38,979 bases of DNA, from NCBI RefSeq assembly GCF_009695545.1, contig NZ_VUNS01000037.1, positions 1-38,979 of the forward strand, read 5' to 3'. Made by a program: the position numbers and the translations under genes. The DNA comes from Victivallis lenta (GTDB lineage Bacteria; Verrucomicrobiota; Lentisphaeria; Victivallales; Victivallaceae). Of the stretch, positions 2,762 to 28,006 are shown piece by piece; position 1 is the first letter of the stretch, and every line of letters starts with the position of its first letter. The notes beneath the pieces were generated by a model, which ran no database searches, was not told the origin of the DNA, and saw only the letters and a program-made list of their open reading frames with translations.

Positions 2762-2789
2762 TTTCATACCTCCATGATGTTAAAACACA

Positions 2790-2825
2790 ACCGGCCCCGG
2801 CAGTCTTACGACCGCCAGGGCCGGT
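2790..2825 (-). terminator. Hairpin upstream of the clamp gene
   Basis: Arms 2790-2801 and 2814-2825 pair over 12 positions with one mismatch, and the loop holds a further GTC/GAC pairing. On the minus strand it is followed by a T-rich stretch and then the clamp's ribosome site, the same order seen at 1413-1452. It may end an upstream transcript now lost, or act as a leader structure. Confidence 0.5.
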
Positions 2826-2892
2826 AACGAACAGGATTGTCCTGATTGCACGAAGGTAATATATAGGTGAAAATCCGTTGAACTACATGAAA

Positions 2893-5801: not shown

Positions 5802-6110
5802 TTTCTTTTATTGCGGCAGTTATGATTCCATTGGACAATATCCGATATTTTCACAATGAAATATATCATGATGGCATCTTAAAATCAATGTACGTCAGGC
5901 CATATAGTTATATAAATAGCTATTTTTATGCTGAACAATTTGAAAAGAATGTTTTTCATGGTAGATTACTCGATAGTGACAAAAGAAATTTGATTCTCCC
6001 GGGCCGAACAAATCGTTGAGTATTCATTTCTGCTCAAAGCAGTCTACGTAATGCCGGGTAAAGGTTCTGGATAATAATAGAAGCGGATATGTAACGTAAC
6101 GCAAAATAAA
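5802..6110. promoter_or_regulatory. Divergent intergenic region, symporter / pseudopilin operon
   Basis: This AT-rich stretch separates oppositely transcribed genes and must hold both promoters. I see no confident -35/-10 pair. A perfect 12-bp palindrome AAATAGCTATTT lies at 5914-5925, and TAATAAT at about 6075 could be a -10 element for the plus-strand operon. A 65-codon open frame inside has no coding character. Confidence 0.35.
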
Positions 6111-6698
6111 ATGAAAGTCGTTCGTCATTTTTCTCTAGTGGAATTACTAATAGTTTGTTCGATCATTATGATTCTCGCCGCACTTTTGGTGCCGGCATTA
6201 AACCAGGCGAGAAGTAATGCAAAATCAACTATCTGCCTCAACAATCAAAGGCAGATATTGATGATTCTTCAAATGTATGGCATGGATCATAATGAGATTC
6301 CGATCAAATACTGGTCAAAAGCTTTATTGGAAACTCAATATGTCCCTCCGAGCGACAATGTTTCATTATTCTGTCCGACTTGGTATCCTCCGAATGAACT
6401 GGGCAATCATCATCAGACATATGGAATGCGTCAGATTGAAGAAGAAGTTCATTCTTTTGTGAATGTTCAAACCCCTTCGACCCATGTACTGATTGCGGAC
6501 TCTATCCGCCTTAATCCTGATGACCCGCAAGATGGAATGAAACAATATTTTCGTTTCTACGGAAATACAGGGCAGCATATGAACCGAGTCCACTGTCGTC
6601 ACCAACGGAAAGCGAATGTCGGTTTTATGGACGGTCATGTCGAATCGTGTTCCGGACAGGAACTCGAAAACTTCGGGTGTCCGAAATATGCATATTAA
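6111..6698 (+). CDS. Type II-like pseudopilin with H-X9-DG domain
   Basis: This 195-aa protein has a short basic leader followed by FSLVELLIVCSIIMILAALLVPAL, the prepilin methylation/processing site and hydrophobic helix of pseudopilins; E at +5 relative to the cleaved F is present. Near the C-terminus H-QRKANVGFM-DG is an exact H-X9-DG motif, the signature of the expanded prepilin families of Planctomycetota and Lentisphaerota. It would be processed by a prepilin peptidase and sit in the inner membrane with a periplasmic domain. The downstream DUF4838 gene starts inside its last codons, so the two are translationally coupled and likely co-function in surface or substrate capture. Confidence 0.9.
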   Translation: MKVVRHFSLVELLIVCSIIMILAALLVPALNQARSNAKSTICLNNQRQILMILQMYGMDHNEIPIKYWSKALLETQYVPPSDNVSLFCPTWYPPNELGNHHQTYGMRQIEEEVHSFVNVQTPSTHVLIADSIRLNPDDPQDGMKQYFRFYGNTGQHMNRVHCRHQRKANVGFMDGHVESCSGQELENFGCPKYAY

Positions 6699-8445
6699 GT
6701 CTACTGTGACGTTTGTTTTGTGGATGATCTCTGCCATACTTTGGGCAGATCCGGTCATCGTGACTCCAAAGCTCCCTGCGGAAATCTCCTTTCCTCCAGG
6801 AGAAACAGTTTGCTATGCGGCAAAATTTCTGCAAATGCACATTCGGGCGGCCACGGGAAAAAATCTTGCAATCATCCCGGAATCCGAAGCGGAAAAATAT
6901 GCCGAACGAATCTGGATCGGCAATACTCGGTTTTCCGCTCAGAATTTGGGAGAGATTCGATTTCAGCCGGAAGAATTGCTGATTCAATCCGTCGACAGCG
7001 ACCTGATTCTCTGCGGAGAAATCACTCCGAAGGGAATTGACCGGGGAACGCTTTTCGCCGTCTACGAATATCTGGAACGGGCATTGGGGATCCGTTGGTT
7101 CTTTGCTGATATTTCGGCATTGTATCCGGACGGACTCGGCACTGTCATTCCGGTCGGAATGGAACTGAAACTCTCAGGCTGGAATATCCGAACCTATCCT
7201 CGTTGCCGTCAGCGTGAGGGCGGGGTAAGTTATTATTATGAACCTGTTGAAATACAGAAAAAATGGCATCCGGTACTTCGTTTCGGCTCCTCATTGCCGT
7301 ATCGCAATGCGAATCATACGCAGATCAACTGGTATCATCTTTATCATGAAACTCATCCGGAATATTTCGCAAAAGATCGGACCGGCAGGGTCAGCTTCAA
7401 TCACCGATTGCCGCACCGCAACTACATCTGTCCGAATGCTTCCGGATTGCTTGAACAGATGCTGGAGAATATCGCTGCCGCCGATGCCGGATGTCCTCCG
7501 GAAAATGCCTGGGGGCCGTGCCCGCCGGAAAAGAATTATGTCTATTTCGCCTTCAACGACGGTATGACCTTGCAAAAGACTTGTCACTGTTCGATATGCG
7601 AACGACTGCTTCAACCGGAAGCACCGGAGGCAGGTCAGGCGAGTGAGCTGGTTTTTGATTTCGTTACTCGTTACGCGCGTGCTGTCGGTACGTGCCGGCC
7701 GGAACGGAGTTTGGTGACGCTGGCGTTTCACCATTATCGGAAACCACCGGTGCAATGCGATATCCCGGAAAATCTGAATGTGATCTATGTAACGAAACTT
7801 ATGCATTATGCCAATGATCCAGCCACTTGGAATGCGGAAACTGCCTATATTCGGGATTGGGCATATTTATTGAAAAATAACCCGGACCGATTGCGAATCT
7901 GGCTGAACATCGTTCATCCGATGCAGTATGTTTCGCGAGTGCCGTGCTTCTATCCGAATCTTTTTCAAAAATGGTTGCGCGCCAATCTGCAGTACAGTGA
8001 CGCCTACTTCATCAACGGACTGAATCCTTATCTGAAACGTCTCGATGAAAGCGCCCGGAGGAAAACGCTTGCCACCTATCCGATGGTCTGGCTGCAAAGC
8101 CGCCTGCTGTGGAATCCCGACACCGAAGTGGAGGCTCTGCTCGCAGATTATACGGCAAATCTCTACGGCCCGGCGGGCAAAACCATGTTCAGGCTCTTTC
8201 AGCTTCTGACAGAACGATGGGAGAAATGCCCAATGCCGTCCGATGCAGATGAAGAGAACTTCATTCATACGGTACGTTTTCCACAAGCAGCAGCTGCAGA
8301 AGTCGAGGCTCTGTTTGAACAGGCAGTCCGGGAAGCTTCTGAAGACGATATGGCAAGACGCCGCGTAGAATTCTGTTATTCCGCTCTCTGGCGGCCTTTT
8401 GCCGCGGAGTCAGAAGCATGGCATCAAAAGCGGAAGGTGGAATAA
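6688..8445 (+). CDS. Secreted DUF4838 (glycoside-hydrolase-like) protein
   Basis: This 585-aa protein has a signal peptide (basic start, hydrophobic core VTFVLWMISAILWA, then DPVIV). Residues ~20-150 form an alpha-glucuronidase-like N-terminal domain with the typical ...GTLFAVYEYLERALGIRWFF segment. The DUF4838 region follows with NDGMTLQKTCHCSICERLL, the family's conserved NDG and Cys cluster, and HHYRKPP further on. DUF4838 proteins are found in polysaccharide-utilisation settings; catalytic activity is presumed but not demonstrated for most. ATG 6688-6690 is preferred to 6616 because it yields the signal peptide; it overlaps the pseudopilin stop by 11 bases. Confidence 0.85.
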   Translation: MHIKSTVTFVLWMISAILWADPVIVTPKLPAEISFPPGETVCYAAKFLQMHIRAATGKNLAIIPESEAEKYAERIWIGNTRFSAQNLGEIRFQPEELLIQSVDSDLILCGEITPKGIDRGTLFAVYEYLERALGIRWFFADISALYPDGLGTVIPVGMELKLSGWNIRTYPRCRQREGGVSYYYEPVEIQKKWHPVLRFGSSLPYRNANHTQINWYHLYHETHPEYFAKDRTGRVSFNHRLPHRNYICPNASGLLEQMLENIAAADAGCPPENAWGPCPPEKNYVYFAFNDGMTLQKTCHCSICERLLQPEAPEAGQASELVFDFVTRYARAVGTCRPERSLVTLAFHHYRKPPVQCDIPENLNVIYVTKLMHYANDPATWNAETAYIRDWAYLLKNNPDRLRIWLNIVHPMQYVSRVPCFYPNLFQKWLRANLQYSDAYFINGLNPYLKRLDESARRKTLATYPMVWLQSRLLWNPDTEVEALLADYTANLYGPAGKTMFRLFQLLTERWEKCPMPSDADEENFIHTVRFPQAAAAEVEALFEQAVREASEDDMARRRVEFCYSALWRPFAAESEAWHQKRKVE

Positions 8446-14156: not shown

Positions 14157-15458
14157 ATGGATGATTTTACCATAGCGGCGGATAACAATGCGCCGACGCA
14201 AGATATCAGCGTCAATACCGCCAAGCCGGATTTGACCGCAAGTCAAGAACTGGCTAAGGGGCAGCAAGTGGACCAAAAGTCTATTTACGGAGAAGTGCCG
14301 CAGATTCCGACTCTGGATGCGATTGAGGGGATTAAGTTCGACTTCAACGACGGTATCCGCATTCTTTTCCCGCAGAATCAGAAAGAGTATCATGTCACAT
14401 TCTCCGATATCGATACGGGGATTATTCTCTTCAGCCAGGATACCGTTCCCGGAGCCTATGTAACCAGCGTCAAGAAGTTTTATATCCGTTTCCGGCTCGT
14501 CATCCATGAAAAAGGTGGCAGGGAACCGATCTTCACCCATGATTTCGATGCGAAAGACAAAGAAGTAATGATCCAGCTTCCGGTCGGCACCATCGGCGAC
14601 TCCATCGGCTGGTTCAGCTATGTCGAACGCTTCCAGAAAAAGCATCAATGCAAAGTGATCTGCGTCATGGCTCCGTGGATTGCCGAAATCGTGAAGAAAC
14701 AATATCCGGAGATCATATTTATTGCTCCGGAAGAAACGAAAAATTACAAGCCTTACGCCTGTTACCATATGGGGCTTTTCTTCAAGGGCGATGTCGATCA
14801 TCAACCGATCGACTTCCGTTATATCGGATTACACCGGACGGCAGGCTATATTCTCGGAGTCGATCCGGCGGATGAACCGCCGCGTTTTGATCTTTCCGCA
14901 CCACGCCGGATCAGGGAGAAATACGTCTGCATCGCGGCGCAGAGTTCCAGCCAGGCGAAGTATTGGAACAATCCATACGGCTGGGACGATGTCGTCAAAT
15001 TCCTGAAAGAGAACGGATACCGGGTGATCTGCATTGACAAGGAACGAGTTCACGGTACGGGATTGGTCTGGAATCATATCCCGTGGGGGACCGAGGATGA
15101 AACCGGAGACAAACCGCTTCAGGAACGGATTGACCTTATCAAAGACGCGGATTTCTTTATCGGTTTAAGTTCCGGCTTGAGCTGGCTGGCGTGGGGGTGC
15201 AATGTTCCGGTGGTGATGATTTCCGGCTTTACGCATCCGACGAATGAATTTGCAACGCCTTACCGCGTCATCAATTATCACACCTGCCACTCCTGCTGGA
15301 ACGACATGCGCGAGAACTTCGATCACTTTGATTTTCTGTGGTGTCCGCGTCACAAGGGAACCGACCGGCATTTTGAGTGCACGAAACTGATTTCCGCAGA
15401 ACAGGTCATCACGACGATTAAAAAGATACCAACTTTCCGGCCGTTAAACGTCGAATAA
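14157..15458 (+). CDS. Strand-loop-strand protein O-heptosyltransferase (BAHT family, Aah/TibC-like)
   Basis: This 433-aa cytoplasmic glycosyltransferase matches the family that transfers heptose from ADP-heptose to Ser/Thr in strand-loop-strand repeats of autotransporter-type adhesins. Key stretches are LPVGTIGDSIGWFSYVERF, the donor-domain IAAQSSSQAKYWNNPYGWDDVV, ADFFIGLSSGLSWLAWGCNVPVVMISGF, and a C-terminal cysteine set C377-x2-C380-x15-C396-x11-C408, equivalent to the metal-binding cysteines of TibC. ATG 14157 is used; an upstream TTG at 14124 is less likely. The next gene encodes a protein full of the repeats this family modifies, so enzyme and substrate are adjacent. Confidence 0.9.
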   Translation: MDDFTIAADNNAPTQDISVNTAKPDLTASQELAKGQQVDQKSIYGEVPQIPTLDAIEGIKFDFNDGIRILFPQNQKEYHVTFSDIDTGIILFSQDTVPGAYVTSVKKFYIRFRLVIHEKGGREPIFTHDFDAKDKEVMIQLPVGTIGDSIGWFSYVERFQKKHQCKVICVMAPWIAEIVKKQYPEIIFIAPEETKNYKPYACYHMGLFFKGDVDHQPIDFRYIGLHRTAGYILGVDPADEPPRFDLSAPRRIREKYVCIAAQSSSQAKYWNNPYGWDDVVKFLKENGYRVICIDKERVHGTGLVWNHIPWGTEDETGDKPLQERIDLIKDADFFIGLSSGLSWLAWGCNVPVVMISGFTHPTNEFATPYRVINYHTCHSCWNDMRENFDHFDFLWCPRHKGTDRHFECTKLISAEQVITTIKKIPTFRPLNVE

Positions 15459-15477
15459 TTTTATCAGGAGGTACGTT

Positions 15478-18400
15478 ATGCAGCAGACAATGATTCCGAA
15501 CAGCGGTATCATGACCGTGCCGCAGATTGCGGCGCCCCAGCTCGTCTATCTTGACTTTGACGGCGAGCTTGCCAGTTACAACGGCGAACTGCTCACCATA
15601 GACCGGGTCGAGGTGGAAGACTCCGGTCTCACGGAGCCGCAGATCGCCCGGATCGTCTCCGGACTCAATGAAGAATTCGAGGGACAGAACATCGTTTTTA
15701 CGGCGGAGAAGCCTGCTTCAGGCGAATATTCGACCGTGTTCATCGGCGGAACATCCGCGTTCGAGCCGTTCGGCTCCTTCGCCGGACTCGCGGAGACGGT
15801 GGATACAGGAAACGCCGTCCGGAACGACAATGCCTTTGTGATTCTCAAGGGCGGCGAGAGCATTGAGGCGATCATCGACACCATTGCCCACGAAACACAG
15901 CATCTCATCGGCACGCTTGACCACGGCGGCGAGGGACTCGGCCGTTATGCGTGGGTTGAAACGCTGTCGCTCTCAAATGTCTCCAGCAGCGGTTTGAAGA
16001 TCGGTCAGGATTCCGGCAACGATGCCGGTTATGTGAGTGCCTCCAGCGCGACATTGGTTTCAACCACGGTCAACTCTGGCGGATGTCTGAGCGCTTTCAG
16101 AGGTCAACTTACCTCTACTGTGGTCAATTCCAGTGGCGTTGTGTATCTTTCAAGAGGCAGCGCCACCGCTGCCACGATCAACGGCGGCAGGTTTCATCTC
16201 CGTCAGGCAACGTTGGTTTCAGCTACGGTCAGCAACGATGGTGTTTTGACGCTCTTCACCGGTTCCGTCAGTTCTGCCACGGTCAACTCTGCATCTATAA
16301 TAGTTTCCGGAGGCAGTGCGAATGGTATGACATTGAACAACGCGAGCATGTACATTCATTCCGGTGGTGTTGTCAGCGGTCTGGCCCTCACTTCCGGAGG
16401 TTATGCTTCCATTCAATATAGTGGACTGATATCCAGCGGAACGGTCTTTTCGAGTTCCTACATTCTCAACAGCGGCGGCGAGCTGAAAGCCATCAGACTG
16501 TCCGGCGGGCGGATTCATTGCGCTTACGGCGGTCAGGCAACAGGCATTACCGGGGTCAACGGTTCGCTGAGTATGGATAGCGGAGGAAAAATCCTGTCTG
16601 CCGCCATTGGCGGCAGTGCGGATTTTGAAATCCGCAACAATGGAATCGCTTCGTCCATGACTTCCTACCTGTCCGCCAGGATGGCGGTTAGAGGTGGCGG
16701 CTCCGCAGTCAATACCACGCTCAACAGCGCCACGGTCTTTGTCCGCAGCGGCGGATGCGTCAGGAATCTGAGCATGTCCCGCGGAATAATGTATCTGAGC
16801 GGCAGTGCCATTCTGTCCGGTTCCATTGTCAACGGCGGAAAGCTTGTCACAGGCGGTCTCGTCAATGCTTTCGGCGCAACTTACACTGTGAACCTTGCCG
16901 GCTACACTGGAACAGAGGTGACAGATGCGTTGGTGGACAATTATGCGAATCTGGCGTCCGTGAGCTATGCGGTCCGTGTCGCCTCCGACCAGCAGACCGG
17001 TGTCTATCGTCTGCTGGGGAATGCGGCGGATTTCAATCAGTTGATCACGCTGGATGTCGCGGGCATCTCCGCCTCTCCGGGAACGCTGAGCGTGGGAGGA
17101 AGCCTCGAAACGTGGAGTCATCGGTATGCCTTGACGCGAACCGGAAGCACCGTGGCGCTTCAGGTGACGATGAACGATCTTCCGGTGAAAATTTATTCCG
17201 ACGGCGTGATGGTTTCCGGCGGAAAGACCATCTCCAGTAAGACCATCTCCGGCTCCGGCGTGGTCATGCGGATTTCCGGCGGCGGCGTCGCCACGGCCAC
17301 AACAGTCAGTTCCGACGGCACGATTTTCATTTCCAGCGGCGGCGGTGCCTCCGGAATCACGGCACGCGGAAGCGGCACCAATGTTGAAAATCGCGGCGGC
17401 GTCATGACGGACTTCAGTCAATACGACGGATTCTCGTTGATCGCCGAAGGGGGGAGCGTCCGGAATCTGAATGCGTCAGGCGGGCAGGTGGCTTTTCTCG
17501 ACGCCACTCTCGGCGGAATGATCCATGCTGCTGTCTACGGCGCTATCGACGTATCGTCGCAGACGACGATAGACTTCTCCGTGGCGGACCATACGGCGGA
17601 CGGGACGGCGCTCATCACGCGCTGGAACAATATTGCCAACGGTACGAAGGCGAATTACACCATCACCGTCAAAGCTGACCAATCTGCCGGAACCTATATT
17701 CTCGCCACCGGAGCCGGAACCTTCAACCAGACTCTCACGGTGAAAAACGATACGGGTAGTGAATTCGGCACCATTGCGCTCGATGAAACGAAGCGGTTCG
17801 GCAATTCCTCTTATACACTGGGCAAGGACGGTATCAAGCTGACCTTGACGGTGGAAAAAGCGACGGCAACACGGGGCGACTTCGACGGGAACGGCATATC
17901 CGATATTCTGTTCCAGAATCTGGCGGATTCCGCCAATCCGCTGGGAGCATGGATGAACGCGGACAAAACGCAGTGGAACGGCGCGCTCGGTCCCGCTCCG
18001 AAGTCCGACTGGACCGTCTACGGCGCGTATGATTTCACAGGAAGCGGCGTCTGCGACATCATGTTCCGCAGCAAACGTGCCGACACCCAGTATGCGGTCG
18101 GATATTACGAGGACGGCGACGTTACGCAGTTCCGTACCATGGGTTGGGGCGTCACTGCCGAATGGGAACTGGCCGACGTGGGAGATTTCAACGGCAGCGG
18201 CAGGGCTGATATCCTCTGGAAGAACTCCTCCAACGGCTATCTCGGATTGTGGATGGATGGCACCGACCAGTGGGTGGCGCTCCCCGCCAGCAATCTCGGT
18301 TCCGGGCAGAGCCTCATCGGCATGGGAGACGTCAACGGCGACGGAAAGGACGACATCCTGATCAACTCCAACGGAGTTCTGGGCTACTGGGACATCACCG

Positions 18401-18774
18401 GAATCCTCGACGATACCAGCAGCACTCCGGAATGGAACGCATTCGGAATCCATGTCGGCAACGAATGGGAAACCATCGGCTGCGCCGATTTCGATGGAAA
18501 CGGAAAGGCGGACATCGTGCTGTGGCGGGACAGAGACGGTTATGTCGGTACCTATATGAACTGTGACGTCAACGATTTCCGAGGAATTTATCCCGGAGCA
18601 TCGAAAGATGAATGGGGGCTTCCGGGATTCGGCGACTACAACGGCGACGGCTGCGACGACGTGCTCGTCCGCAACCTCGCCAGCGGTGCGCTCGGTTATT
18701 GGGACGGCGCGGATGAGTTCAAGTGGAATGAGATCGGCAGCGGCGTCGACAGCACGTGGGCTGTCATTGCGTAA
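15478..18774 (+). CDS. Metzincin-like / strand-loop-strand repeat / FG-GAP protein (probable O-heptosylation target)
   Basis: This is a 1098-aa protein. Residues ~1-155: LVYLDFDGEL followed by HETQHLIGTLDH at 138-149, an exact HExxHxxGxxH zinc motif. Residues ~160-470: a series of ~18-20-residue strand-loop-strand repeats rich in Ser, Gly and Asn (SSATVNS, YIHSGGVVSG, FVRSGGCVRN). A second set follows an intervening domain at ~560-680. Residues ~795-1098: six FG-GAP-type calcium-binding units (GDFDGNGISDILF, GDFNGSGRADILW, GDVNGDGKDDILI, GDYNGDGCDDVLV and two more). There is no N-terminal signal peptide and no C-terminal beta-barrel, so it is not a classical autotransporter; the export route is unclear. 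TCAGGAGGT gives a strong start. Proteolytic activity is plausible but a Met-turn is not evident. Confidence 0.8.
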   Translation: MQQTMIPNSGIMTVPQIAAPQLVYLDFDGELASYNGELLTIDRVEVEDSGLTEPQIARIVSGLNEEFEGQNIVFTAEKPASGEYSTVFIGGTSAFEPFGSFAGLAETVDTGNAVRNDNAFVILKGGESIEAIIDTIAHETQHLIGTLDHGGEGLGRYAWVETLSLSNVSSSGLKIGQDSGNDAGYVSASSATLVSTTVNSGGCLSAFRGQLTSTVVNSSGVVYLSRGSATAATINGGRFHLRQATLVSATVSNDGVLTLFTGSVSSATVNSASIIVSGGSANGMTLNNASMYIHSGGVVSGLALTSGGYASIQYSGLISSGTVFSSSYILNSGGELKAIRLSGGRIHCAYGGQATGITGVNGSLSMDSGGKILSAAIGGSADFEIRNNGIASSMTSYLSARMAVRGGGSAVNTTLNSATVFVRSGGCVRNLSMSRGIMYLSGSAILSGSIVNGGKLVTGGLVNAFGATYTVNLAGYTGTEVTDALVDNYANLASVSYAVRVASDQQTGVYRLLGNAADFNQLITLDVAGISASPGTLSVGGSLETWSHRYALTRTGSTVALQVTMNDLPVKIYSDGVMVSGGKTISSKTISGSGVVMRISGGGVATATTVSSDGTIFISSGGGASGITARGSGTNVENRGGVMTDFSQYDGFSLIAEGGSVRNLNASGGQVAFLDATLGGMIHAAVYGAIDVSSQTTIDFSVADHTADGTALITRWNNIANGTKANYTITVKADQSAGTYILATGAGTFNQTLTVKNDTGSEFGTIALDETKRFGNSSYTLGKDGIKLTLTVEKATATRGDFDGNGISDILFQNLADSANPLGAWMNADKTQWNGALGPAPKSDWTVYGAYDFTGSGVCDIMFRSKRADTQYAVGYYEDGDVTQFRTMGWGVTAEWELADVGDFNGSGRADILWKNSSNGYLGLWMDGTDQWVALPASNLGSGQSLIGMGDVNGDGKDDILINSNGVLGYWDITGILDDTSSTPEWNAFGIHVGNEWETIGCADFDGNGKADIVLWRDRDGYVGTYMNCDVNDFRGIYPGASKDEWGLPGFGDYNGDGCDDVLVRNLASGALGYWDGADEFKWNEIGSGVDSTWAVIA

Positions 18775-18783
18775 AGGAAACGA

Positions 18784-19917
18784 ATGGAGCTCAAGAAAAT
18801 TCTTATTATTTTCGGAACAAGACCGGAAGCCATCAAAATGGCTCCGGTCGTCGCCGAGTTTCAAAGGCGCCCGGAATGTGAAGTCAAAGTCTGCTTTTCC
18901 GGACAGCACCGGGAGATGGTTGAACAGGTCCTTGAGGTATTCGGACTTGTTCCGGATTTCGATCTCGCTGTCATGAAAAAAGGACAGACGCTGACCGAAG
19001 TGACAACCGGTGTCCTTGCCGGAATGAAACGCCTGCTTGAACAATATGCGCCGGATATGGTACTGGTTCAGGGAGATACGACTACAGTACTGGCGGCCTC
19101 GCTGGCAGCGTTCTACCGCCGGATTCCGGTAGGGCATGTCGAGGCCGGATTGCGGACGGGAAACCGTTATTCGCCGTTTCCGGAAGAAATGAATCGGTTG
19201 CTCGCCTCCCGGCTGGCGACACTTCACTTCGCGCCGACGGAACGAGCCCGGAAAAATCTGCTGGAGGAAAAGATTCCGGAATCGGATATTTCCGTGACAG
19301 GCAATACCGTAATTGACGCTCTTCATATCGCGCTGAACCGACTGGATACCGATCCGGAGCGGCTGCAGCGGATGGAGGCGGAATTCTCCCATCTGAATCC
19401 GGCGCGGAAACTGATTCTGGTCACCGGTCATCGCCGGGAAAATCACGGTGACGGGATTCGGCAGATTTGCGCCGCCCTGAAACGTCTGGCGGCACGGAGC
19501 GATGTGGAGATCCTCTATCCGGTGCATCCCAACCCCAATATCCGAATGGTGGCCGAAAAAGAATTGGGCGACATGGAAGGGATTCAGCTCTGTCAACCAC
19601 AGGATTACCTTTCGTTTCTTTATCTCATGCGTCGCAGTTTTCTGATTCTGACGGATTCCGGAGGAATTCAGGAAGAGGCGCCCGCGCTGGGAAAACCGGC
19701 ACTGGTCATGCGGGAGAGTACAGAACGCCCCGAAGCGCTGGATGCCGGAACCATCCGCCTGGTCGGCCATGATCCGGAACGTATCGTCGGGGAAGCTGAA
19801 AAATTACTGAATTCCCCGGAGGAATACCGGCGGCGCTGCCGTCTCGCCAATCCTTTCGGAGACGGTTCGGCGGCCCGGAGAATCGCGGATATCGTACTGG
19901 AGCGCCTGTCGGAATGA
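18784..19917 (+). CDS. wecB: UDP-N-acetylglucosamine 2-epimerase (non-hydrolysing)
   Basis: This 377-aa cytoplasmic enzyme interconverts UDP-GlcNAc and UDP-ManNAc, a precursor for surface polysaccharides. Conserved elements are present in order: FGTRPEAIKMAPV, VQGDTTTVLA, VEAGLRTGNRYSPFPEEMNR, GNTVIDAL, VTGHRRENHG, YPVHPNPN and DSGGIQEEAPALGKP. Length is normal for the family. It lies 9 bases behind the repeat-protein gene and overlaps the next glycosyltransferase by ATGA, so the glycosylation run continues without a break. Confidence 0.95.
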   Translation: MELKKILIIFGTRPEAIKMAPVVAEFQRRPECEVKVCFSGQHREMVEQVLEVFGLVPDFDLAVMKKGQTLTEVTTGVLAGMKRLLEQYAPDMVLVQGDTTTVLAASLAAFYRRIPVGHVEAGLRTGNRYSPFPEEMNRLLASRLATLHFAPTERARKNLLEEKIPESDISVTGNTVIDALHIALNRLDTDPERLQRMEAEFSHLNPARKLILVTGHRRENHGDGIRQICAALKRLAARSDVEILYPVHPNPNIRMVAEKELGDMEGIQLCQPQDYLSFLYLMRRSFLILTDSGGIQEEAPALGKPALVMRESTERPEALDAGTIRLVGHDPERIVGEAEKLLNSPEEYRRRCRLANPFGDGSAARRIADIVLERLSE

Positions 19918-20966
19918 ATTTTGTCTTTTTCGCCGCTGTCGCATATGATTCCACCCTTGGCGGACGTACCCGGCAGCTGGCCGATATTTTGAGCTGTCGT
20001 CATCAGGTGCATTTCATCGAAATGCCCAGTTTGCGCCGCCCGATGCCCCGTCATGCCGTCAGGCGTGAAAACGGAGTATGGATCCATCATCTGCCGCCGT
20101 TGCCGGGCGGCTGGCGAATGGCGGGAACGAGCGGAGAAAAACTCTGGATTACCTATGCGGTCACCATGCTGCGGCGGACGCTTCCACCGGATTTTTTCGC
20201 CGTCGTCAGCAATCCGTTCTGGGAAGCGTTGACGGAACGGCTGGAGTCCGCTTGTCTGATCTACGACTGTCTGGATCACTGCTCAATCCATACAAAATCC
20301 TGTTACGCTCCGGCAGTGGCGGAGCGGGAACAACGCCTGGCCACCCGCTCCGGGCTGATTCTGGCCGTCAGCAGGAAGCTGACGGAGTTCTGGCAGGCCC
20401 GGTATCGGGAAAAAACGTTTTTTCTTCCCAACGGCTGTCCGGACTCATGGCTGAAGCTGGAACGCCGACAACCGCTGCGCCCCCTGGCTGGTTTTCTCGG
20501 AGCGCTGTATGAGTGGATCGATTATTCTCTGTTGGAACAGGTGGCGGACGCGCAGCCGAAGGTGCCGTTTGAGTTTACCGGTCCGGTTCGCGACCGGAAG
20601 AGTATTGCCGCTTTGCGGAAAATGCCGAATGTGAAATTTCGCACTGCCGTACCGTTCTGCCGGGCCGCGGAGGTCATGAGCCGTTATTCAGTCGGCCTGA
20701 TCCCTTTCCGGCATGACCCGGTTGCCGAATACAGCAATCCGTTGAAGATGTATGAATATCTGGCGTTGGGGATACCTGTGGTCAGCACACTTCCCGGTGA
20801 AGCCGGTTTGCCGGTTCATGTCGCCATCGGTGCGGCGGATTTCATCAGGCAGGTGCAGCGGCAATTGGAGGCACCGCCCCCGGCGGAGGAAATGAAGCGG
20901 GCCGTCGTTTCCCGCACCTGGAATTGCATTGCAACTGATTTGGAAAGGATTTTAGAGAAAATATGA
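19914..20966 (+). CDS. Glycosyltransferase (GT-B, GT1/4-like)
   Basis: This 350-aa protein has a GT-B shape: an N-terminal half opening MNFVFFAAVAYDSTLGGRTRQLADIL, a central YDCLDHCS segment and a C-terminal donor half with FFLPNGC, ...AEVMSRYSVGLIPFRHDPVAEYSNPLKMYEYLALGIPVVST. The latter is the E-x7-E-like nucleotide-sugar region. It resembles the second half of the large transferase that follows, suggesting a shared pathway. Acceptor and sugar are not deducible. It is joined to both neighbours by 4-base ATGA overlaps. Confidence 0.85.
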   Translation: MNFVFFAAVAYDSTLGGRTRQLADILSCRHQVHFIEMPSLRRPMPRHAVRRENGVWIHHLPPLPGGWRMAGTSGEKLWITYAVTMLRRTLPPDFFAVVSNPFWEALTERLESACLIYDCLDHCSIHTKSCYAPAVAEREQRLATRSGLILAVSRKLTEFWQARYREKTFFLPNGCPDSWLKLERRQPLRPLAGFLGALYEWIDYSLLEQVADAQPKVPFEFTGPVRDRKSIAALRKMPNVKFRTAVPFCRAAEVMSRYSVGLIPFRHDPVAEYSNPLKMYEYLALGIPVVSTLPGEAGLPVHVAIGAADFIRQVQRQLEAPPPAEEMKRAVVSRTWNCIATDLERILEKI

Positions 20967-23839
20967 AAAAGGACAGTCAGCCGGCAAATTCATCGCCCAG
21001 GCAGGGGGAAAATTATCTGGAAGTGTTGAAGCAATGCAATGACTTGCTTCTCGAACAGAAACGGCGTCTGGAAGAAGACCTTGAAAAGCAGCGGAAACTT
21101 TGCACTCTGTTGAAGCTGAAAGTACGGGAACTGGCGGACGCCAACCGGGCATTCGGAGCTGAGCGCAAGATCCAGGCCACGGAAATTGCCCGGCTCACGG
21201 CTCAGGTGCAAAAGGGACACGAAAAGATTTTCAATACGGCCTTTACCGCCGGCAGCATCACCAGACAGGTCATGGAATTGCTGAATTCCAGAAGTTTCGT
21301 CTGGACTAATTTTCTTCGCTACACCGACCGCACCCTGTTGAATTTCTCCATTCAAGGGAAAGTCAACTTTTTTCGGAAGGTTTCTTCCCGCATTCTTCGG
21401 AACAAACGGATGCAGCTGCCTTCCGCTCTTCAGGGGATCGACCGGGAACTGCAACTGCTGAATGCCGCGCTTTCGGAACTTTGCCATGAAGTCAATTTAG
21501 ACGGTTCCGGCTGTCAGGTTCCGGCAACTGTGGCGCCGCCGATACCGGAAATTCCGATCGCTCCGCCGTTTGAGGCAGTTACTCAGTGGAAACATATTTT
21601 TACTCCGGGGCGCGGAGAAGCGCCGAGCCGAACCGTTGCGATTGCCACGCTGCTTTTCTACGATGCAGACGGGCGGAACTACATGCACGGCGGAGCGGAA
21701 CGTTATCTGATCGAGCTTTTCGGCATCATTCAATCAATGGGATTTGAAGCTGTAGTCGTTCAGGCGGGCAACTCCGACTGGACTCTAGCCCATCATTGCG
21801 AATATGGGGAACTGCCGGTAACGGCGCTGCATTCGGAATTGCTTTTCAACTCCTTCAGCGAAGCAGTCAACCGGTGGCAGAATGAGAATCCCTGCGCCTT
21901 GATGATCTATTCGCCGTTTCTGATCGCTTCGCTTTATTCCGCCCCGAATTCCCTGGGAATTTCCCATGGAATTTTCTGGGACGATCCTCATTACCGCGTG
22001 ACGCAGGAAACGGTGATATTTCATCAGAAGGCTATCCGGCAGGCCATCGCCAACTGTCATGAATTGATATCCGTGGACACGAATACCGTCAACTGGTACC
22101 GTACCATGTGCCACGATGCGGAAGTCAAAATGAACTGCATTCCGAATTTCGTGAACCGGCGGGAGTTTCATCCGCTGCAGAACGCAGAGAAACGCCGAAA
22201 ACTGCGAATCGTCTATCCACGGCGACTCTATGCCGCCCGAGGATTCAACCTGGTGCTGGAGGTGTTTCCGGAACTGTTCCGGAAATATCAAGACATCGAA
22301 TTGGAACTGATCGGTCAGATCGATGACAACGCCCGGAAGCAGTTGAAGGATTTTCTTGGAAAATTCCACGGGCGCGTGAAACATCGCTGCTGTCCGCCGG
22401 AGGAGATGCCGGAGGTCTATCGCCGTGCGGATATCGTACTGGTGCCGACCTGCTATTCGGAAGGAACCAGCCTTTCATGCCTGGAAGCCATGGCGAGCGG
22501 CTGCGCGGTGATCGCCACCAATGTGGGCGGCTTGCCGGAACTCATCATCAACCGTTTCAACGGTCTGCTGATCGCTCCGGAAGCGGAGGCGCTGGCGGAA
22601 GCGCTGACGCAACTTATTGAACAGCCGGAATTGCGGCAGGATATTGCGGAAAACGCCTTGAAAACCAGTAAATGCTACGATCTTGTCCGCTGGCGGGACG
22701 AATGGCGCAAAGTATTGGAACGCAAGCTCGGAAAATCCCGGGAACGGCGAATTGAATTCGTTCAGCTGGCGGCTCCGGGGATGACTTGGAATGCAATGAA
22801 GCAGCGGCCTCAGCAACTCTTTCAGGCGTTGGCGCAAATGGGGTTCGAATCGACTTATATTTCCGATGAGCCGATGGTCAATCAATCTCTGCTCGGAGAT
22901 ATTCCTCCTCAATTGCACATCCAGCCCAACGGTTTCATTCCGAATTTGAACGGGAAATATCTTTATCTTTATTTTCCGAACATCATCTATCATCGCAATT
23001 TCACCTATGGCGAGCTGATTCGTAATTCAGACTGCAAAATCATTTTCGATATTCTCGACGATCCGTCGATCCACACCAATCCCGAGACCGGAAAGGCTGA
23101 TCCGGTATTCATGAACAATTTCGAAATGCTCCTGAAAAATGCCGATTTCGTCATCACCAGCGCCCGGCAGCTGTATGAAAAATATTCCGGAATCCGACCG
23201 GATATGAAGCTGGTATTCAACGGCGTGACACTGGAGGATTTCCGGCTTCGGACCGTTCCGGAGCGTCCCGCCGATCTGCCTGACGACGGGCGCAAGATCA
23301 TCGGTTATTACGGGGCTCTGGCGCAATGGGTGGATTTCGATCTGATTGAACAGGCTGCGAAGGCTTTGCCGGAACTGCACTTCGTCCTGATCGGCCTGAA
23401 TGTCAATGAAGAAGAGATATCCCGCGTCACCGCTCTGGGAAACGTTCATTTTCTGGGACTGAAACACTACAATCAACTGGCCGGCTATCTCCGGTATTTC
23501 GACGTGGCGACCATACCTTTTAAAATCAACCCGGTTACAGATGCCGCTTCGCCGATCAAGCTTTTTGAATATTGCGCTTCGGGAACGCCGGTTGTAACCA
23601 CCGGATTTGCTGAAGTCATGCAGTATCGGGAACAGGGCGTCATGGTAGCCGAAAGCCGGGACGATTATATTGCAAAATTAAAACAGGCCGCCGGCCTGAA
23701 AGATGAAGATTTGGAGAAACTGCGGAAAAAACTGGAGGCGCTTGCCGAATCCAATACCTGGGCGATTCGGGCTTCCATCATTGCGGACATGGTACGGGAA
23801 AAACAGGATAACACTGAGGAAACGGAAGATGTTCGATAA
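20963..23839 (+). CDS. Double-domain glycosyltransferase with N-terminal coiled coil
   Basis: This is a 958-aa protein. Residues ~10-95 are a long coiled coil (repeated LEEDLEKQRKLCTLLKLKVREL). Residues ~215-590 form a GT4 domain: MHGGAERYLIELFGI, PNFVNRREFHPL, then RIVYPRRLYAARGFNLVLEVFPEL and TCYSEGTSLSCLEAMASGCAVIATNVGGLPEL. Residues ~595-945 form a second GT-B domain: PGMTWNAMKQRPQQLFQAL, IFDILDDPSIH, VFNGVTLEDFR and ...TIPFKINPVTDAASPIKLFEYCASGTPVV. Two active sites on one chain suggest processive or sequential sugar addition, and the coiled coil may oligomerise it or dock it to the exporter. The start forms ATGA with the previous stop. Confidence 0.85.
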   Translation: MKKDSQPANSSPRQGENYLEVLKQCNDLLLEQKRRLEEDLEKQRKLCTLLKLKVRELADANRAFGAERKIQATEIARLTAQVQKGHEKIFNTAFTAGSITRQVMELLNSRSFVWTNFLRYTDRTLLNFSIQGKVNFFRKVSSRILRNKRMQLPSALQGIDRELQLLNAALSELCHEVNLDGSGCQVPATVAPPIPEIPIAPPFEAVTQWKHIFTPGRGEAPSRTVAIATLLFYDADGRNYMHGGAERYLIELFGIIQSMGFEAVVVQAGNSDWTLAHHCEYGELPVTALHSELLFNSFSEAVNRWQNENPCALMIYSPFLIASLYSAPNSLGISHGIFWDDPHYRVTQETVIFHQKAIRQAIANCHELISVDTNTVNWYRTMCHDAEVKMNCIPNFVNRREFHPLQNAEKRRKLRIVYPRRLYAARGFNLVLEVFPELFRKYQDIELELIGQIDDNARKQLKDFLGKFHGRVKHRCCPPEEMPEVYRRADIVLVPTCYSEGTSLSCLEAMASGCAVIATNVGGLPELIINRFNGLLIAPEAEALAEALTQLIEQPELRQDIAENALKTSKCYDLVRWRDEWRKVLERKLGKSRERRIEFVQLAAPGMTWNAMKQRPQQLFQALAQMGFESTYISDEPMVNQSLLGDIPPQLHIQPNGFIPNLNGKYLYLYFPNIIYHRNFTYGELIRNSDCKIIFDILDDPSIHTNPETGKADPVFMNNFEMLLKNADFVITSARQLYEKYSGIRPDMKLVFNGVTLEDFRLRTVPERPADLPDDGRKIIGYYGALAQWVDFDLIEQAAKALPELHFVLIGLNVNEEEISRVTALGNVHFLGLKHYNQLAGYLRYFDVATIPFKINPVTDAASPIKLFEYCASGTPVVTTGFAEVMQYREQGVMVAESRDDYIAKLKQAAGLKDEDLEKLRKKLEALAESNTWAIRASIIADMVREKQDNTEETEDVR

Positions 23840-24740
23840 ACTGGAAGATGTCACTTATACCTCCTTCGGCATTGTTCCGCAGGAGTTCTATAAAAACAAA
23901 TTCAATTCGGTTCCCAGTCACGATTATCTGTCCGATCCGGTAAACCGTTTTCTGCTCGGAGCTTCCCGAATCCGTCATCTCTGCCGGGAGCTTCAGGGGG
24001 GACGGGTGCTTGATCTCGGATGCGGATGCGGACCTTACGGCTTGACGCTCAAACAGCACGGCTATGCCGATCATCTGACCGGAATCGACCTGGATCCGGA
24101 TTGCACCAAACGCGCCGGAGAGTGTTATGATGAGGTCGTGACGCAGCAGGCGCTGGATCAGCTGCCTTTTCCCGATGGCAGTTTTGACGCCGTATTCAGC
24201 AGTGATTTTTTCGGGCATGTGGAGTTCCGTTACAAAGACGCCTTGATTGCGGAAGTTGCCCGCGTATTGCGTCCCGGCGGCCGGACCATCCATCTGATCG
24301 AAAGCGGAAATTACGACTACCTGCATTGCAATCAGGATGATCCGGATGATCCGCTCCGTAAGTACGTTTACGTGGACGGACATATCGGGGTGGAGTCACC
24401 GGTCGCGATCAAGCGGCGTTTCGAGCCGTATTTCGAGCAGATTCACCTGCGTAACGCCATGCTGTTTCCCTTTTTTACCGTCCAAGGGTTCATCAACAAT
24501 ACCGATGTTTTCGGCGAGGAGTTTTCGGCGCTGCTGCGAAAATTCTCTCCCGCCGAGGCGCAGGCGGCGGATATCGTCAGCGGTTTTATCTGCGACTATC
24601 TGGAACGGGAACTTTATCAGGAAAATCCGGCGAACCTAGATCCCACGCTGGAACGCAATCTGCCGCGAGTGTTGAAATATGAGTGCGGAATGGTCTTTCT
24701 TTCCGGGTTAAAAAAAACGGAGCAGGAATTCCATGCGTAA
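23829..24740 (+). CDS. SAM-dependent methyltransferase (class I, Methyltransf_11-like)
   Basis: This 303-aa enzyme carries motif I VLDLGCGCGPYG, motif II LTGIDLDPDC, and LPFPDGSFDAVFSSDFFGHVE with RVLRPGGRTIHLIE, the standard class I set. ATG 23829-23831 follows GAGGAAACGGAAG and overlaps the transferase stop by 11 bases; the earlier in-frame ATG at 23703 is rejected. In this operon it may cap or decorate a glycan; the acceptor is not known. Confidence 0.9.
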   Translation: MFDKLEDVTYTSFGIVPQEFYKNKFNSVPSHDYLSDPVNRFLLGASRIRHLCRELQGGRVLDLGCGCGPYGLTLKQHGYADHLTGIDLDPDCTKRAGECYDEVVTQQALDQLPFPDGSFDAVFSSDFFGHVEFRYKDALIAEVARVLRPGGRTIHLIESGNYDYLHCNQDDPDDPLRKYVYVDGHIGVESPVAIKRRFEPYFEQIHLRNAMLFPFFTVQGFINNTDVFGEEFSALLRKFSPAEAQAADIVSGFICDYLERELYQENPANLDPTLERNLPRVLKYECGMVFLSGLKKTEQEFHA

Positions 24741-25788
24741 CAAAAGGGTTCTGTTTTGCCTCCGCCGGGATTATTTGCGCCATCCCGGCGGGGATACCAT
24801 GCAGATGGAGTCCTATGCACGAATTCTGCGACAGTCGGGAAATCATGTCCGGTTGCATTCCGGTTCCGTCGCACCGTCGGATCTCGAAGGAAACGACATA
24901 GTGTTTGTCTGGCATCTGGAGCGGCCGCATGACAGTTTTCAACCGTGGCATACCGCAATCCGCAATGGCCTGCCCGTGGTACTGCTGCCGACCTGTTTTC
25001 ACGCGAATACCGCTGGATTTTGGCGGGCTTTGCCGGAGCAGTTCAAAATCTGGTACCGCTGTCTTCGGGAACCGTCAGACTCCGCCTCTCATTACATGCA
25101 ATTCCGTTCGTGGCGGCATTGCCGTGAGAGAATGTTGACCCAAAGTTCGTGTTTGATCGTCAACTCCGAAGCAGAAAAAACGTTGTTGCTTCGCGAAGGT
25201 GCCAACACCTCACGGGTGGTCGTGATTCCCAATGTCGTCGATCAGGAAACATTGACGGTACAGGAACCGGCGCCTTGGAATAAACGTCAGCGGATCATTT
25301 GTATCGGGCACTTCTGCCCTCGTAAAAACCAATTGGGATTGATTCGAGCTCTGCGTGGACTTGACTTGCAGATCACCTTTGTCGGTACGGCCCGGCCGAT
25401 GCACCAACGCTATCTGGAACGCTGCCGGCGGGAAAGCGCCGGCCAACATCTGTTTACCGGTGCGCTTTCCCATTATGATACGTTGAAACTGCTGGCGCAA
25501 AGCCGTCTGGCGATTTCCGCCAGTTTTGAAGAAACGCCGGGAATCGCCAATCTGGAGGCGGCTGCTTTGGGATGCAATCTTCTGTTGTCGGAAATTGCTC
25601 CGATCCGGGAATATTTCGGCGCGCGTTCAATGTATCTTGATCCGTCCCGTATTGATGCGGCGCGAATTCGGGAAGCGGTACACCTGCCGCCGTCTCCGGA
25701 ATTGAGAACCCATATTCTGTCCCATTATACGGAAAAGAATCTGCATCGGTTCTTTCAAATACTTGAAATTGAGGAAATGGCTCATTGA
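24733..25788 (+). CDS. Glycosyltransferase family 4-like
   Basis: This 351-aa GT-B protein opens MRNKRVLFCLRRDYLRHPGGDTMQMESYARILRQSG, carries the mid-linker VVVIPNVVD and IICIGHFCPRKNQLGLIRAL, and ends in the donor region FEETPGIANLEAAALGCNLLLSE. It overlaps the methyltransferase by 8 bases and the ABC permease by TTGA. Sugar specificity cannot be read from the sequence. Confidence 0.9.
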   Translation: MRNKRVLFCLRRDYLRHPGGDTMQMESYARILRQSGNHVRLHSGSVAPSDLEGNDIVFVWHLERPHDSFQPWHTAIRNGLPVVLLPTCFHANTAGFWRALPEQFKIWYRCLREPSDSASHYMQFRSWRHCRERMLTQSSCLIVNSEAEKTLLLREGANTSRVVVIPNVVDQETLTVQEPAPWNKRQRIICIGHFCPRKNQLGLIRALRGLDLQITFVGTARPMHQRYLERCRRESAGQHLFTGALSHYDTLKLLAQSRLAISASFEETPGIANLEAAALGCNLLLSEIAPIREYFGARSMYLDPSRIDAARIREAVHLPPSPELRTHILSHYTEKNLHRFFQILEIEEMAH

Positions 25789-26549
25789 AACAATTCATTC
25801 AAAATTGGAACATCATCTATTATCGGAGCATGGCGGAACTGAAAGCCGAGGCCAGCAACAATTATGCCGGCTACATCTGGTGGGTTTTGCAACCGTTTCT
25901 GGCGCTGGCCGTCTATTATGTGGCATTCCGGTGGCTGATTCCCTATCCGGACGATCGGTTTACATTGTTTCTGTTCATCGGGATCACGGTCTGGCAGCTC
26001 TGGGCCAATACTTTGATCCGAAGTTGCGCCGCATTGATTACCTATCGGCCGCTGATGCTGCAGTTGAACATTGAGAAATACGTCTTCCCGGTGAGTATCT
26101 GCATCGTCAATCTGGTGAAGTTCCTGACCGCATTTATCCTGCTTTTACTGTTGGCTCCATTTCTGGGCGGCACCGTTTCTGCGGCTCTGATGACGCTTCC
26201 GCTGTTGTTACTGTTATTATTGTTATTGACTTGCGGGACCGGGATGATACTGGCCGCGGTTACGCCGTTCTGCCCGGATATGGTGCTTGTGGTGGAGTTT
26301 CTGTTGCATCTGATGATGTTTCTGAGCGGTGTGTTTTTCGACTTGACGCTGCTTCCGGAGGGAATACAGAAAGTGCTGGCATTCAATCCGCTTGCGGTTA
26401 TCATCAGCCAGCTCCGTCGAGTGATGATGGACGGCTGTTTCCCGGACTGGCAGAGCTTGGCGGGACCGGCTCTCTGGACATGTATCCTGCTGGCCGTCGG
26501 CGGCTGGATGTTGAAACACTTCGGCAAACAATATCCGAGGATGACCTGA
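25785..26549 (+). CDS. ABC-2 type polysaccharide export permease (Wzm/TagG-like)
   Basis: This 254-aa membrane protein has six hydrophobic helices. It begins with an amphipathic stretch and NNYAGYIWWVLQPFLALAVYYV, then ITVWQLWANTLIRS and a C-terminal FFDLTLLPEGIQKVLAFNPLAVIISQLRRVM loop typical of O-antigen and teichoic-acid exporters. The start is TTG at 25785-25787 within TTGA, which overlaps the glycosyltransferase stop. It would pair with the ATPase encoded 3 bases downstream to move a lipid-linked glycan across the inner membrane. Confidence 0.9.
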   Translation: MKQFIQNWNIIYYRSMAELKAEASNNYAGYIWWVLQPFLALAVYYVAFRWLIPYPDDRFTLFLFIGITVWQLWANTLIRSCAALITYRPLMLQLNIEKYVFPVSICIVNLVKFLTAFILLLLLAPFLGGTVSAALMTLPLLLLLLLLLTCGTGMILAAVTPFCPDMVLVVEFLLHLMMFLSGVFFDLTLLPEGIQKVLAFNPLAVIISQLRRVMMDGCFPDWQSLAGPALWTCILLAVGGWMLKHFGKQYPRMT

Positions 26550-26552
26550 ACC

Positions 26553-27248
26553 ATGAACCAGTCCATGATTGTGTATGATGTGTGCCATGTCGGCATAAGC
26601 TATATGAAATCCGCATCTTTCCCCTGGCGGAAAAACCGGTTCCAAGCATTGAAGGATGTCAATTTCCAGATACGCTCCGGCGATGTTGTCGGCATCATCG
26701 GCCGGAACGGAGCCGGAAAAACAACCCTGTTGCGTCTGTTGGCCGGTATCCTCAAACCGGATACGGGAGTTATCCGCCGGGCTTATGAGCATGTCGGAAT
26801 CCTCTCGTTCGGTTCCGGATTCGAAGATCGCTTGTCCGGGCGGCAGAACATCATGCTTGAAGGGATTCAGATGGGAGTACCACGCCGGAAAATTCTGCAG
26901 CACGCCGATCCGATCATCGAACTGGCCGGACTCGGCGAATTCATTGATCAACCGATCAAAGTGTATTCTTCCGGCATGCGTACCCGGCTTGGGTTTGCCA
27001 TTGCCTATTATCTGCATTCGCAGGTTTTACTGATTGATGAAACCTTTGTGGCCGGGGATGACGAATTTCAGAAGAAGGCCGGGCAGCTGATCACGGAAAA
27101 AATCCAATCCGGTATTACCGTAGTCATGGTTTCGCATGCATTGAGTGTCCTGGAACATTTGTGTAACCGGATTATTCAGATTGAAGACGGTGTGTCTCTC
27201 CCTGAATTGCCGGTACGGGAATCAATCGAGAGATACCGGCACCAATGA
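26553..27248 (+). CDS. ABC transporter ATP-binding protein for glycan export (Wzt/TagH-like)
   Basis: This 231-aa ATPase has Walker A GRNGAGKTTLLRLLAG, the ABC signature YSSGMRTRLGFAIAYY, Walker B VLLIDETFVAGDDEF and the switch His in MVSHALSVL. The N-terminal SFPWRKNRFQALKDVNF segment matches polysaccharide-export ATPases. It lacks the C-terminal carbohydrate-binding domain of the longer Wzt proteins, so export is probably not gated by terminal-sugar recognition. It overlaps the next gene by ATGA. Confidence 0.95.
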   Translation: MNQSMIVYDVCHVGISYMKSASFPWRKNRFQALKDVNFQIRSGDVVGIIGRNGAGKTTLLRLLAGILKPDTGVIRRAYEHVGILSFGSGFEDRLSGRQNIMLEGIQMGVPRRKILQHADPIIELAGLGEFIDQPIKVYSSGMRTRLGFAIAYYLHSQVLLIDETFVAGDDEFQKKAGQLITEKIQSGITVVMVSHALSVLEHLCNRIIQIEDGVSLPELPVRESIERYRHQ

Positions 27249-28006
27249 GAAAATATACCGACAATGCCTGGTTTTCCGCATTGTTTCTTCCGTTATGCGG
27301 CCTGCTGGTGCTGGGAACGTTGCTTTGGCTCAATCCGATTCCGGCAGATGATACGGCGACGCGCTATGCTCCGATGGCGCAAGCTTTTGCCGAGGGAGAT
27401 TGGTTCTATGCGTTTCATCCCCATTCCGGCGTATTTTTCCCGGCACTCTCCGGTGGAATCGCGTGGCTGACCGGGGTGGACGGCTTCCGAGCCTGTCAGG
27501 TGGCGGCACTTCTGCTGTGGGCGACGGCGGCCATTCCGCTTTACGGTATCGTTCTGAAACTCTGGGGGGATCGGAGAATCGCCCTGCTGGCTGAACTACT
27601 CTATTTGGCCGCCTCCCATCTACAACGTTACGTCTACGATGGTTTACGTGATAACGGTCGTTCGCTCGGATTGTTTCTTTTGGTACTTGGCTTGCTGATG
27701 TTTTATGAAAGTTGTCGTTCATGGCGGGCAGTTCCGGTGAGCGCCGTCGGTGCGGCACTGCTGACAATGCTTCGTGTCGATGGTCCACTGATCGCTGCCG
27801 CCGGAATCCTCTGCTTTATTGTCTGGGATGTTACGGGAAACCACCGAAATCTTCTCCGCTGCGCTGCCTTACTGATCCTGACCACGGTTCTGATTTCTCC
27901 GCAACTGTATTTAAACTATCGCTGGAGCGGCTACCCGGTGCCGAATTCCCGTTATTCGCTGATTCTGGAACATCTCGGCATTCCAGGCTGGGGAGACGGC
28001 ATATGA
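27245..28006 (+). CDS. GT39/ArnT-like glycosyltransferase, N-terminal half
   Basis: This 253-aa membrane protein has a first helix followed by IPADDTATRYAPMAQAFAEGDW, the acidic first loop that carries the catalytic Asp in GT39 (PMT/ArnT) enzymes. Further helices and a loop YRWSGYPVPNSRYSLILEHLGIPGWGDGI follow, where it ends. Such enzymes use polyprenyl-phosphate sugars and normally run ~500 aa; the missing half is encoded by the next frame. The ATG overlaps the stop of the ATPase gene. Confidence 0.75.
   Translation: MRKYTDNAWFSALFLPLCGLLVLGTLLWLNPIPADDTATRYAPMAQAFAEGDWFYAFHPHSGVFFPALSGGIAWLTGVDGFRACQVAALLLWATAAIPLYGIVLKLWGDRRIALLAELLYLAASHLQRYVYDGLRDNGRSLGLFLLVLGLLMFYESCRSWRAVPVSAVGAALLTMLRVDGPLIAAAGILCFIVWDVTGNHRNLLRCAALLILTTVLISPQLYLNYRWSGYPVPNSRYSLILEHLGIPGWGDGI

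Follow-up and report, generated by a model that had tools for sequence, protein, structure and literature searches.

A predicted O-heptosyltransferase and a metzincin-headed, propeller-tailed repeat protein in Victivallis lenta suggest protein heptosylation linked to type I secretion

Two adjacent genes of Victivallis lenta probably encode a glycosyltransferase/substrate pair, in which the repeat protein would be heptosylated in the cytosol and then exported by type I secretion as an adhesin or protease; we assign this reading a probability of about 0.68. The heptosyltransferase would use ADP-heptose in the cytosol and add heptose to serines of the neighbouring protein, within its 18-residue strand-loop-strand repeats. 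Export would proceed with neither a Sec signal peptide nor an autotransporter barrel, most likely via a HlyB/HlyD/TolC-type type I secretion system (T1SS) encoded elsewhere in the genome, and calcium would fold the FG-GAP propeller outside the cell. The result would be a rigid stalk covered in sugar that bears a metzincin-like domain at one end and a lectin-like propeller at the opposite end; it would probably serve to bind, and possibly trim, neighbouring cells or glycoproteins from the host or its diet. A preliminary description of this DNA had proposed a heptosylated putative protease or adhesin that leaves the cell by a non-autotransporter route. The evidence presented here supports that proposal, within which we infer heptosylation, export and proteolysis.

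The window, that is, the whole 38,979-nucleotide stretch analysed, corresponds to contig C37 in full and belongs to a genome of 5.5 Mb. Its relevant features are as follows.

14157..15458, + strand: O-heptosyltransferase, BAHT-type, Aah/TibC family, as assigned from TIGR04414, PF21129 TibC_1st, PF01075 and a phmmer match to TibC (4rap)
14124, + strand: in-frame TTG upstream of 14157, an alternative start of the heptosyltransferase
14598..14600, + strand: codon of Asp148, counterpart of the TibC catalytic base Asp110 (alignment to TibC; role from PMC4358343)
15285..15380, + strand: predicted iron-finger Cys377, Cys380, Cys396 and Cys408 (alignment to TibC; PMC4358343)
15478..18774, + strand: metzincin-headed strand-loop-strand repeat protein, 1098 aa (ORF and domain matches)
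15535..15957, + strand: predicted metzincin-like N-domain, about residues 20-160 (alignment of 16 relatives, termed A1; AF2; structure matches)
15889..15924, + strand: putative zinc-site motif HETQHLIGTLDH, residues 138-149 (sequence; family statistics)
15958..17847, + strand: Ser-rich strand-loop-strand region of AIDA/TibA type, residues 161-790, putative O-heptose acceptor (TIGR04415, AIDA-I, 18-aa period, Ser content)
17860..18771, + strand: predicted FG-GAP beta-propeller of lectin-like fold, about residues 795-1098 (PF13517/PF01839, AF2, structure matches)
18784..19917, + strand: wecB-type UDP-GlcNAc 2-epimerase, with which the downstream glycan cluster begins (TIGR00236, 493 bits)

The end of the heptosyltransferase gene and the start of the repeat-protein gene are 19 bp apart, and an AGGAGG ribosome site precedes the latter. 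This order is that of E. coli, where the heptosyltransferase gene lies directly upstream of the substrate gene. The wecB-type gene follows 9 bp beyond the repeat-protein gene, and several glycosyltransferases, a methyltransferase and an ABC-2 type exporter pair (25785-26549, 26553-27248) come after it on the same strand (18784-28006 overall); the pair therefore heads an O-antigen-like glycan operon or cluster. A sigma-70 promoter scan returned matches at chance number only. Towards the end of the window, on the - strand, an ORF at 36950-38242 matches the RHS repeat PF05593.

The first gene had been described as an Aah/TibC-type O-heptosyltransferase, and our searches agree: its product scores 590.6 bits against TIGR04414 (cut-off 200) and matches TibC (4rap) with a phmmer E value of 2e-144. 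When the two proteins are aligned, TibC residues D110, T226, K230, R286 and W305 correspond to D148, S264, K268, R324 and W343, with S264 a conservative change from T226, and the iron-finger cysteines (C377, C380, C396, C408) have spacing identical to that of TibC (339/342/358/370). Roles of Asp110 as catalytic base, of the sugar-binding residues and of the iron-finger cysteines are described for TibC (PMC4358343). The position of TibC Pro300 and Aah Ser294 has been linked to sugar stereoselectivity, with Aah taking both ADP-heptose epimers (PMC4358343); the window enzyme, like Aah, has a serine there (Ser338). Judged by family membership and catalytic residues, the enzyme is thus classified as a TibC/Aah-type O-heptosyltransferase. 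For the ADP-heptose donor, the V. lenta genome contains two HldE-domain-I-like genes, which score 328.7 and 319.6 bits and fall below the cut-off of 345.

The second gene product combines a head, a repeat region and a tail. Serine makes up 14.3% of residues 161-790 versus 5.6–5.8% of the domains on either side. Across residues 161-470, the autocorrelation at a spacing of 18 residues is 0.243, compared to 0.237 for the best of 1000 shuffles. TIGR04415 matches the protein with 21.9 bits (E 1.3e-4) against a curated cut-off of 30, AIDA-I also matches the repeat region weakly, and a paralogue encoded on contig C6 reaches 98.4 bits with TIGR04415. The preliminary description had seen strand-loop-strand repeats here and had made its heptosylation proposal depend on acceptor serines within them; serine content and periodicity are compatible with both points, and the TIGR04415 score stays below cut-off. 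It had also reported that the protein lacks a signal peptide and a C-terminal beta-barrel. Consistent with this, a hydropathy scan detected no N-terminal hydrophobic segment (19-residue hydropathy in that part peaks at 0.86), the barrel model PF03797 gives no Pfam match, and the structure predicted for the C-terminus is a propeller.

In that C-terminal part (residues about 795-1098), the six FG-GAP-type motifs noted earlier are present, and Pfam FG-GAP_3 and FG-GAP (PF13517/PF01839) match above cut-off. An AF2 model of the region (pLDDT 84.3) is closest to Streptomyces UmbA4 (9oee; Z 25.5 over 291 residues) and also resembles the fungal GlcNAc lectins (Psathyrella velutina lectin 2bwr; Z 14.8 over 276 residues). 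By this model, the C-terminal domain is a beta-propeller with a lectin-like fold, and it may bind a ligand.

On its own, the N-domain (residues 20-160) has no Pfam match. Its AF2 model, built from the alignment of 16 relatives, has a pLDDT of 80.8, with core blocks above 90. Foldseek matched this model to metzincins, weakly (best E 0.026), and VIA-align placed metzincins in all of its best 50 matches, the top one having a Z of 8.0 and an rmsd of 4.2 with 118 residues aligned. Z values of 7–8 are modest by themselves, but we find assignment of the modelled domain to the metzincin fold convincing because the match list is uniform and HExxH is invariant. The structure prediction that the preliminary description had called for thus bears out its metzincin proposal.

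The same cannot be said of the exact HExxHxxGxxH motif it had reported. The window protein reads H138-E-T-Q-H142-L-I-G-T-L-D148-H149 (HETQHLIGTLDH), with the third histidine one residue late, at position 12 rather than 11; the exact motif is found in the paralogues encoded on contigs C1, C3 and C6 of the same genome. All 80 distinct HExxH-bearing domains have the third histidine at one of these positions (position 11 in 21, position 12 in 59), and the 59 domains of the second kind have D, E, N, S, T or K at position 11. The displaced third histidine is therefore a family trait, and the pattern points to His149 as the third zinc ligand in a motif one residue longer. The snapalysin motif is HExxHxxGxxD. 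We considered Asp148 as a snapalysin-like third ligand and disfavour it, since position 11 varies across the family, and every motif-bearing domain without His there has one at position 12. Because of the shifted histidine, we class the N-domain as metzincin-like rather than as a canonical metzincin.

Another departure concerns the Met-turn. No methionine that could serve in it occurs in the rest of the window N-domain after the motif (HGGEGLGRYA follows), and most family members have Leu or Ile in its place. Going by the titles of Foldseek matches, structures have been solved for PrtC variants in which the Met-turn methionine is replaced. With the third zinc ligand displaced and the Met-turn methionine missing, the predicted head may be inactive. 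It is conceivable, if somewhat doubtful, that the head is a degenerate, non-catalytic domain with a structural or binding role and that the protein is an adhesin only, an idea compatible with the heptosylation and export proposed here and favoured also by the absence of HExxH from the matched stretch of some family members. Against it stand His138, Glu139 and His142, invariant in A1, and the conservation of a histidine at position 11 or 12 in 80/80 domains, with position 11 free to vary when 12 is His. Given this conservation, the sequences suggest that metal binding at the predicted site is kept; the head would then bind zinc and might act in proteolysis.

The N-domain family is widespread within the lineage. 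There are three paralogues in the V. lenta genome (C1, C3, C6), and ten other genomes of the same family contribute 17 further places. A contig scan with a profile made from a 7-row alignment detected 78 loci, nearly all in Lentisphaeria/Victivallales MAGs and about ten of them in MAG SIG96; with the single window N-domain as query, the contig scan gave no matches. Outside the Lentisphaeria, the domain appears in Planctomycetota, one Chthoniobacteraceae and one record filed as Nealsonbacteria. Among 44 complete Lentisphaerota members, RTX GGxGxD repeats are present in 16 and FG-GAP repeats in 6, and Leu-Ala occurs within the last six residues of 30 (26 of 40 distinct C-termini) versus a background of 3%. 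Six SIG96 paralogues (L079, L083, L084, L085, L086, L089) differ in their repeats and have nearly identical C-termini (LTRSAADILTTDKEESRLLNSGKLAG), which look like a candidate export signal module. On contig C3 of V. lenta (L014; 6897-8186, 12613-15978), no repeat neighbour was recognised for a third heptosyltransferase, and a repeat ORF ∼4 kb from it ends in KKGNGLLA, resembling the C-termini of the family.

The preliminary description had left the export route unnamed and proposed a search for a secretion system near similar proteins. Such a system was found in two places. In the Victivallales contig JAFZIJ010000095.1 (L102), a heptosyltransferase (146-1495), an N-domain protein (1585-4719), a small ORF, HlyB and HlyD follow one another on the + strand; the N-domain protein carries PF16168 AIDA and PF00353 RTX, and the HlyB has a C39-like domain. 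In G021:C164, a gene for a propeller like that of the window (E 1e-34 over 300 residues, full length) lies ∼2.1 kb upstream of HlyB/HlyD. At this latter locus (L144, 1311-10406), an insertion-sequence-like stretch (about 1825-3542) interrupts the metzincin-like head, and HlyB/HlyD lie downstream. A further enzyme/N-domain pair, L035, encodes a protein with an RTX C-terminus that ends in GFLA.

V. lenta itself has two HlyB/HlyD pairs, on contigs C21 and C30. The HlyD proteins score 307.8 and 283.7 bits (cut-off 208.65), the HlyB proteins 658 and 431 bits, below the TIGR01846 cut-off of 725.55, and a weak TolC-like match reaches 134.5 bits against a cut-off of 225. In 12/12 genomes tested, a type I-class HlyD scored above its cut-off. 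PF03797 barrels were found in 0/11 genomes, namely that of V. lenta and ten related ones; nine of the 11 have TIGR04414 over cut-off, and PF03797 is blind to divergent and T5b barrels. The HlyB/HlyD operon of a relative, the RTX C-termini in 16/44 members and the lack of PF03797 barrels together indicate, at the level of sequence, that the alternative route is type I secretion, and we infer the same route for the window protein.

Another machine, such as a T5b translocator or a diverged barrel, might instead export the heptosylated repeats. T1SS genes adjoin only two of roughly 90 N-domain loci, one of which (G021) is an interrupted gene; none was recognised within the window, whose protein has no RTX GGxGxD repeats and ends in WAVIA rather than xLA, and PF03797 was the sole barrel model searched. 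However, T5b export needs an N-terminal signal and the window protein has no hydrophobic N-terminus, the L102 operon includes HlyB/HlyD, and the relative upstream of HlyB/HlyD in G021 is FG-GAP-tailed like the window protein. We consider export by a machine other than type I unlikely.

Enzyme and N-domain co-occur in 9/11 versus 12/50 genomes (Fisher p 6e-4, from counts that ignore phylogeny). In a tree, the window enzyme falls in one clade with the enzymes of L102, L035 and L147, and within its large group a large repeat protein directly follows the enzyme at L035, L102, L145, L147, L148, L150, L156 and L157. Chance adjacency of the window pair is ruled out, because the identical gene order recurs at these eight further loci. 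The L147 partner combines repeats with RTX and lacks the metzincin-like head; hence the constant partner of the enzyme is the AIDA-type repeat, as expected for a substrate, whereas the head is a module that can be absent.

One could still argue that the neighbour is not the substrate, and that the enzyme modifies another repeat protein and is adjacent only as part of a glycan operon. The pair opens a wecB/glycosyltransferase/ABC-2 exporter cluster, which would fit, as would the many N-domain proteins with no adjoining heptosyltransferase. Yet the recurrent order of enzyme then large repeat protein, and the membership of the partners in the AIDA type, a known substrate class, make this very unlikely. 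Under the favoured enzyme/substrate reading, a known enzyme family very probably acts on a known repeat class.

A second BAHT clade (support 99/97) comprises L015 (V. lenta C35:1-14000), L152, L161, L162, L165 and L166. Its enzymes adjoin a 490–730-aa AIDA-type repeat protein in what appears to be a prophage tail module, with minor tail and tape-measure matches; in L015, the two genes lie side by side on the - strand (3587-4831 and 4831-6774). In IMG/VR, 72 viral contigs (L170-L241) encode relatives of the C35 heptosyltransferase with 31–76% identity, six of them with an AIDA-type repeat protein nearby, which in the five closest (L170-L174) directly precedes the enzyme. Four GenBank phage records match the window enzyme. 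Phage tail proteins may carry an O-heptosyltransferase of their own. Near the prophage tail genes of L152, a reverse transcriptase (5976-7052, - strand; phrog_1423, 319 bits) is possibly part of a diversity-generating retroelement. As this sister clade sits in prophage tail modules, we considered whether the window pair came from a phage and rejected this: the window enzyme groups with the first clade, and glycan genes adjoin it.

BAHT heptosyltransferases have been portrayed as modifiers of autotransporters (PMC4358343). It is somewhat more probable than its converse that the Lentisphaerota practise a 'glyco-type I secretion', with a BAHT re-purposed to heptosylate T1SS-exported adhesins, many with an undescribed metzincin-like head of shifted ligand, present as many paralogues per genome and fitted with interchangeable RTX, FG-GAP-lectin or other C-termini. 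Protein heptosylation would then extend to a second secretion route, as BAHT genomes without PF03797 were found and the neighbouring substrates look type I-secreted. In a literature search largely without subscription journals, we found no paper joining BAHT with type I secretion and none naming Victivallis with a heptosyltransferase. The enzyme family and the repeat class are known; the export setting and the fusion to an undescribed metzincin-like domain are new. That domain, for which Pfam has no model, occurs in multiple copies in Lentisphaeria of the ruminant gut, and the extra residue in its zinc motif offers a way to test how far the metzincin definition extends. Surface proteins of gut bacteria that combine a protease head, a lectin tail and a sugar coat are candidates for attachment to mucin or host glycoproteins.

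Among known proteins, the best structural matches of the N-domain are archaemetzincins and adamalysins (Z about 7.2–8.0, 105–126 residues aligned), to which its sequence identity is 10–19% and from which it differs by a variant zinc motif and by being fused to a lengthy repeat architecture. Serralysins (PrtC and its relatives) are RTX metzincins secreted by T1SS and appear among the Foldseek matches of the N-domain. They resemble the window protein in its predicted metzincin-type fold and its lack of an N-terminal signal, and their RTX C-terminus recurs in relatives of that protein. Unlike serralysins, the window head has no Pfam match, a motif one residue longer and no Met-turn methionine, and the protein adds an AIDA-type solenoid of considerable length and has a heptosyltransferase as partner. 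The strand-loop-strand proteins of TIGR04415 have the same repeat class, and that model describes the repeat rather than head, propeller or export route. UmbA4 (9oee) and the Psathyrella velutina lectin (2bwr) have an FG-GAP/ALF-type propeller like the window's, a likeness of fold only, and in the window protein this propeller forms the tail of a repeat protein. The closest systems are Aah/AIDA-I and TibC/TibA of E. coli (PMC4358343), which have in common with the window pair the enzyme family, the catalytic and iron-finger residues and Ser-rich repeats, in the window protein of apparent strand-loop-strand type. In place of the signal peptide and beta-barrel of AIDA-I and TibA, however, the window substrate has a metzincin-like head and an FG-GAP propeller, and relatives of it have RTX ends and T1SS genes; PF03797 was found in none of the 11 genomes searched.
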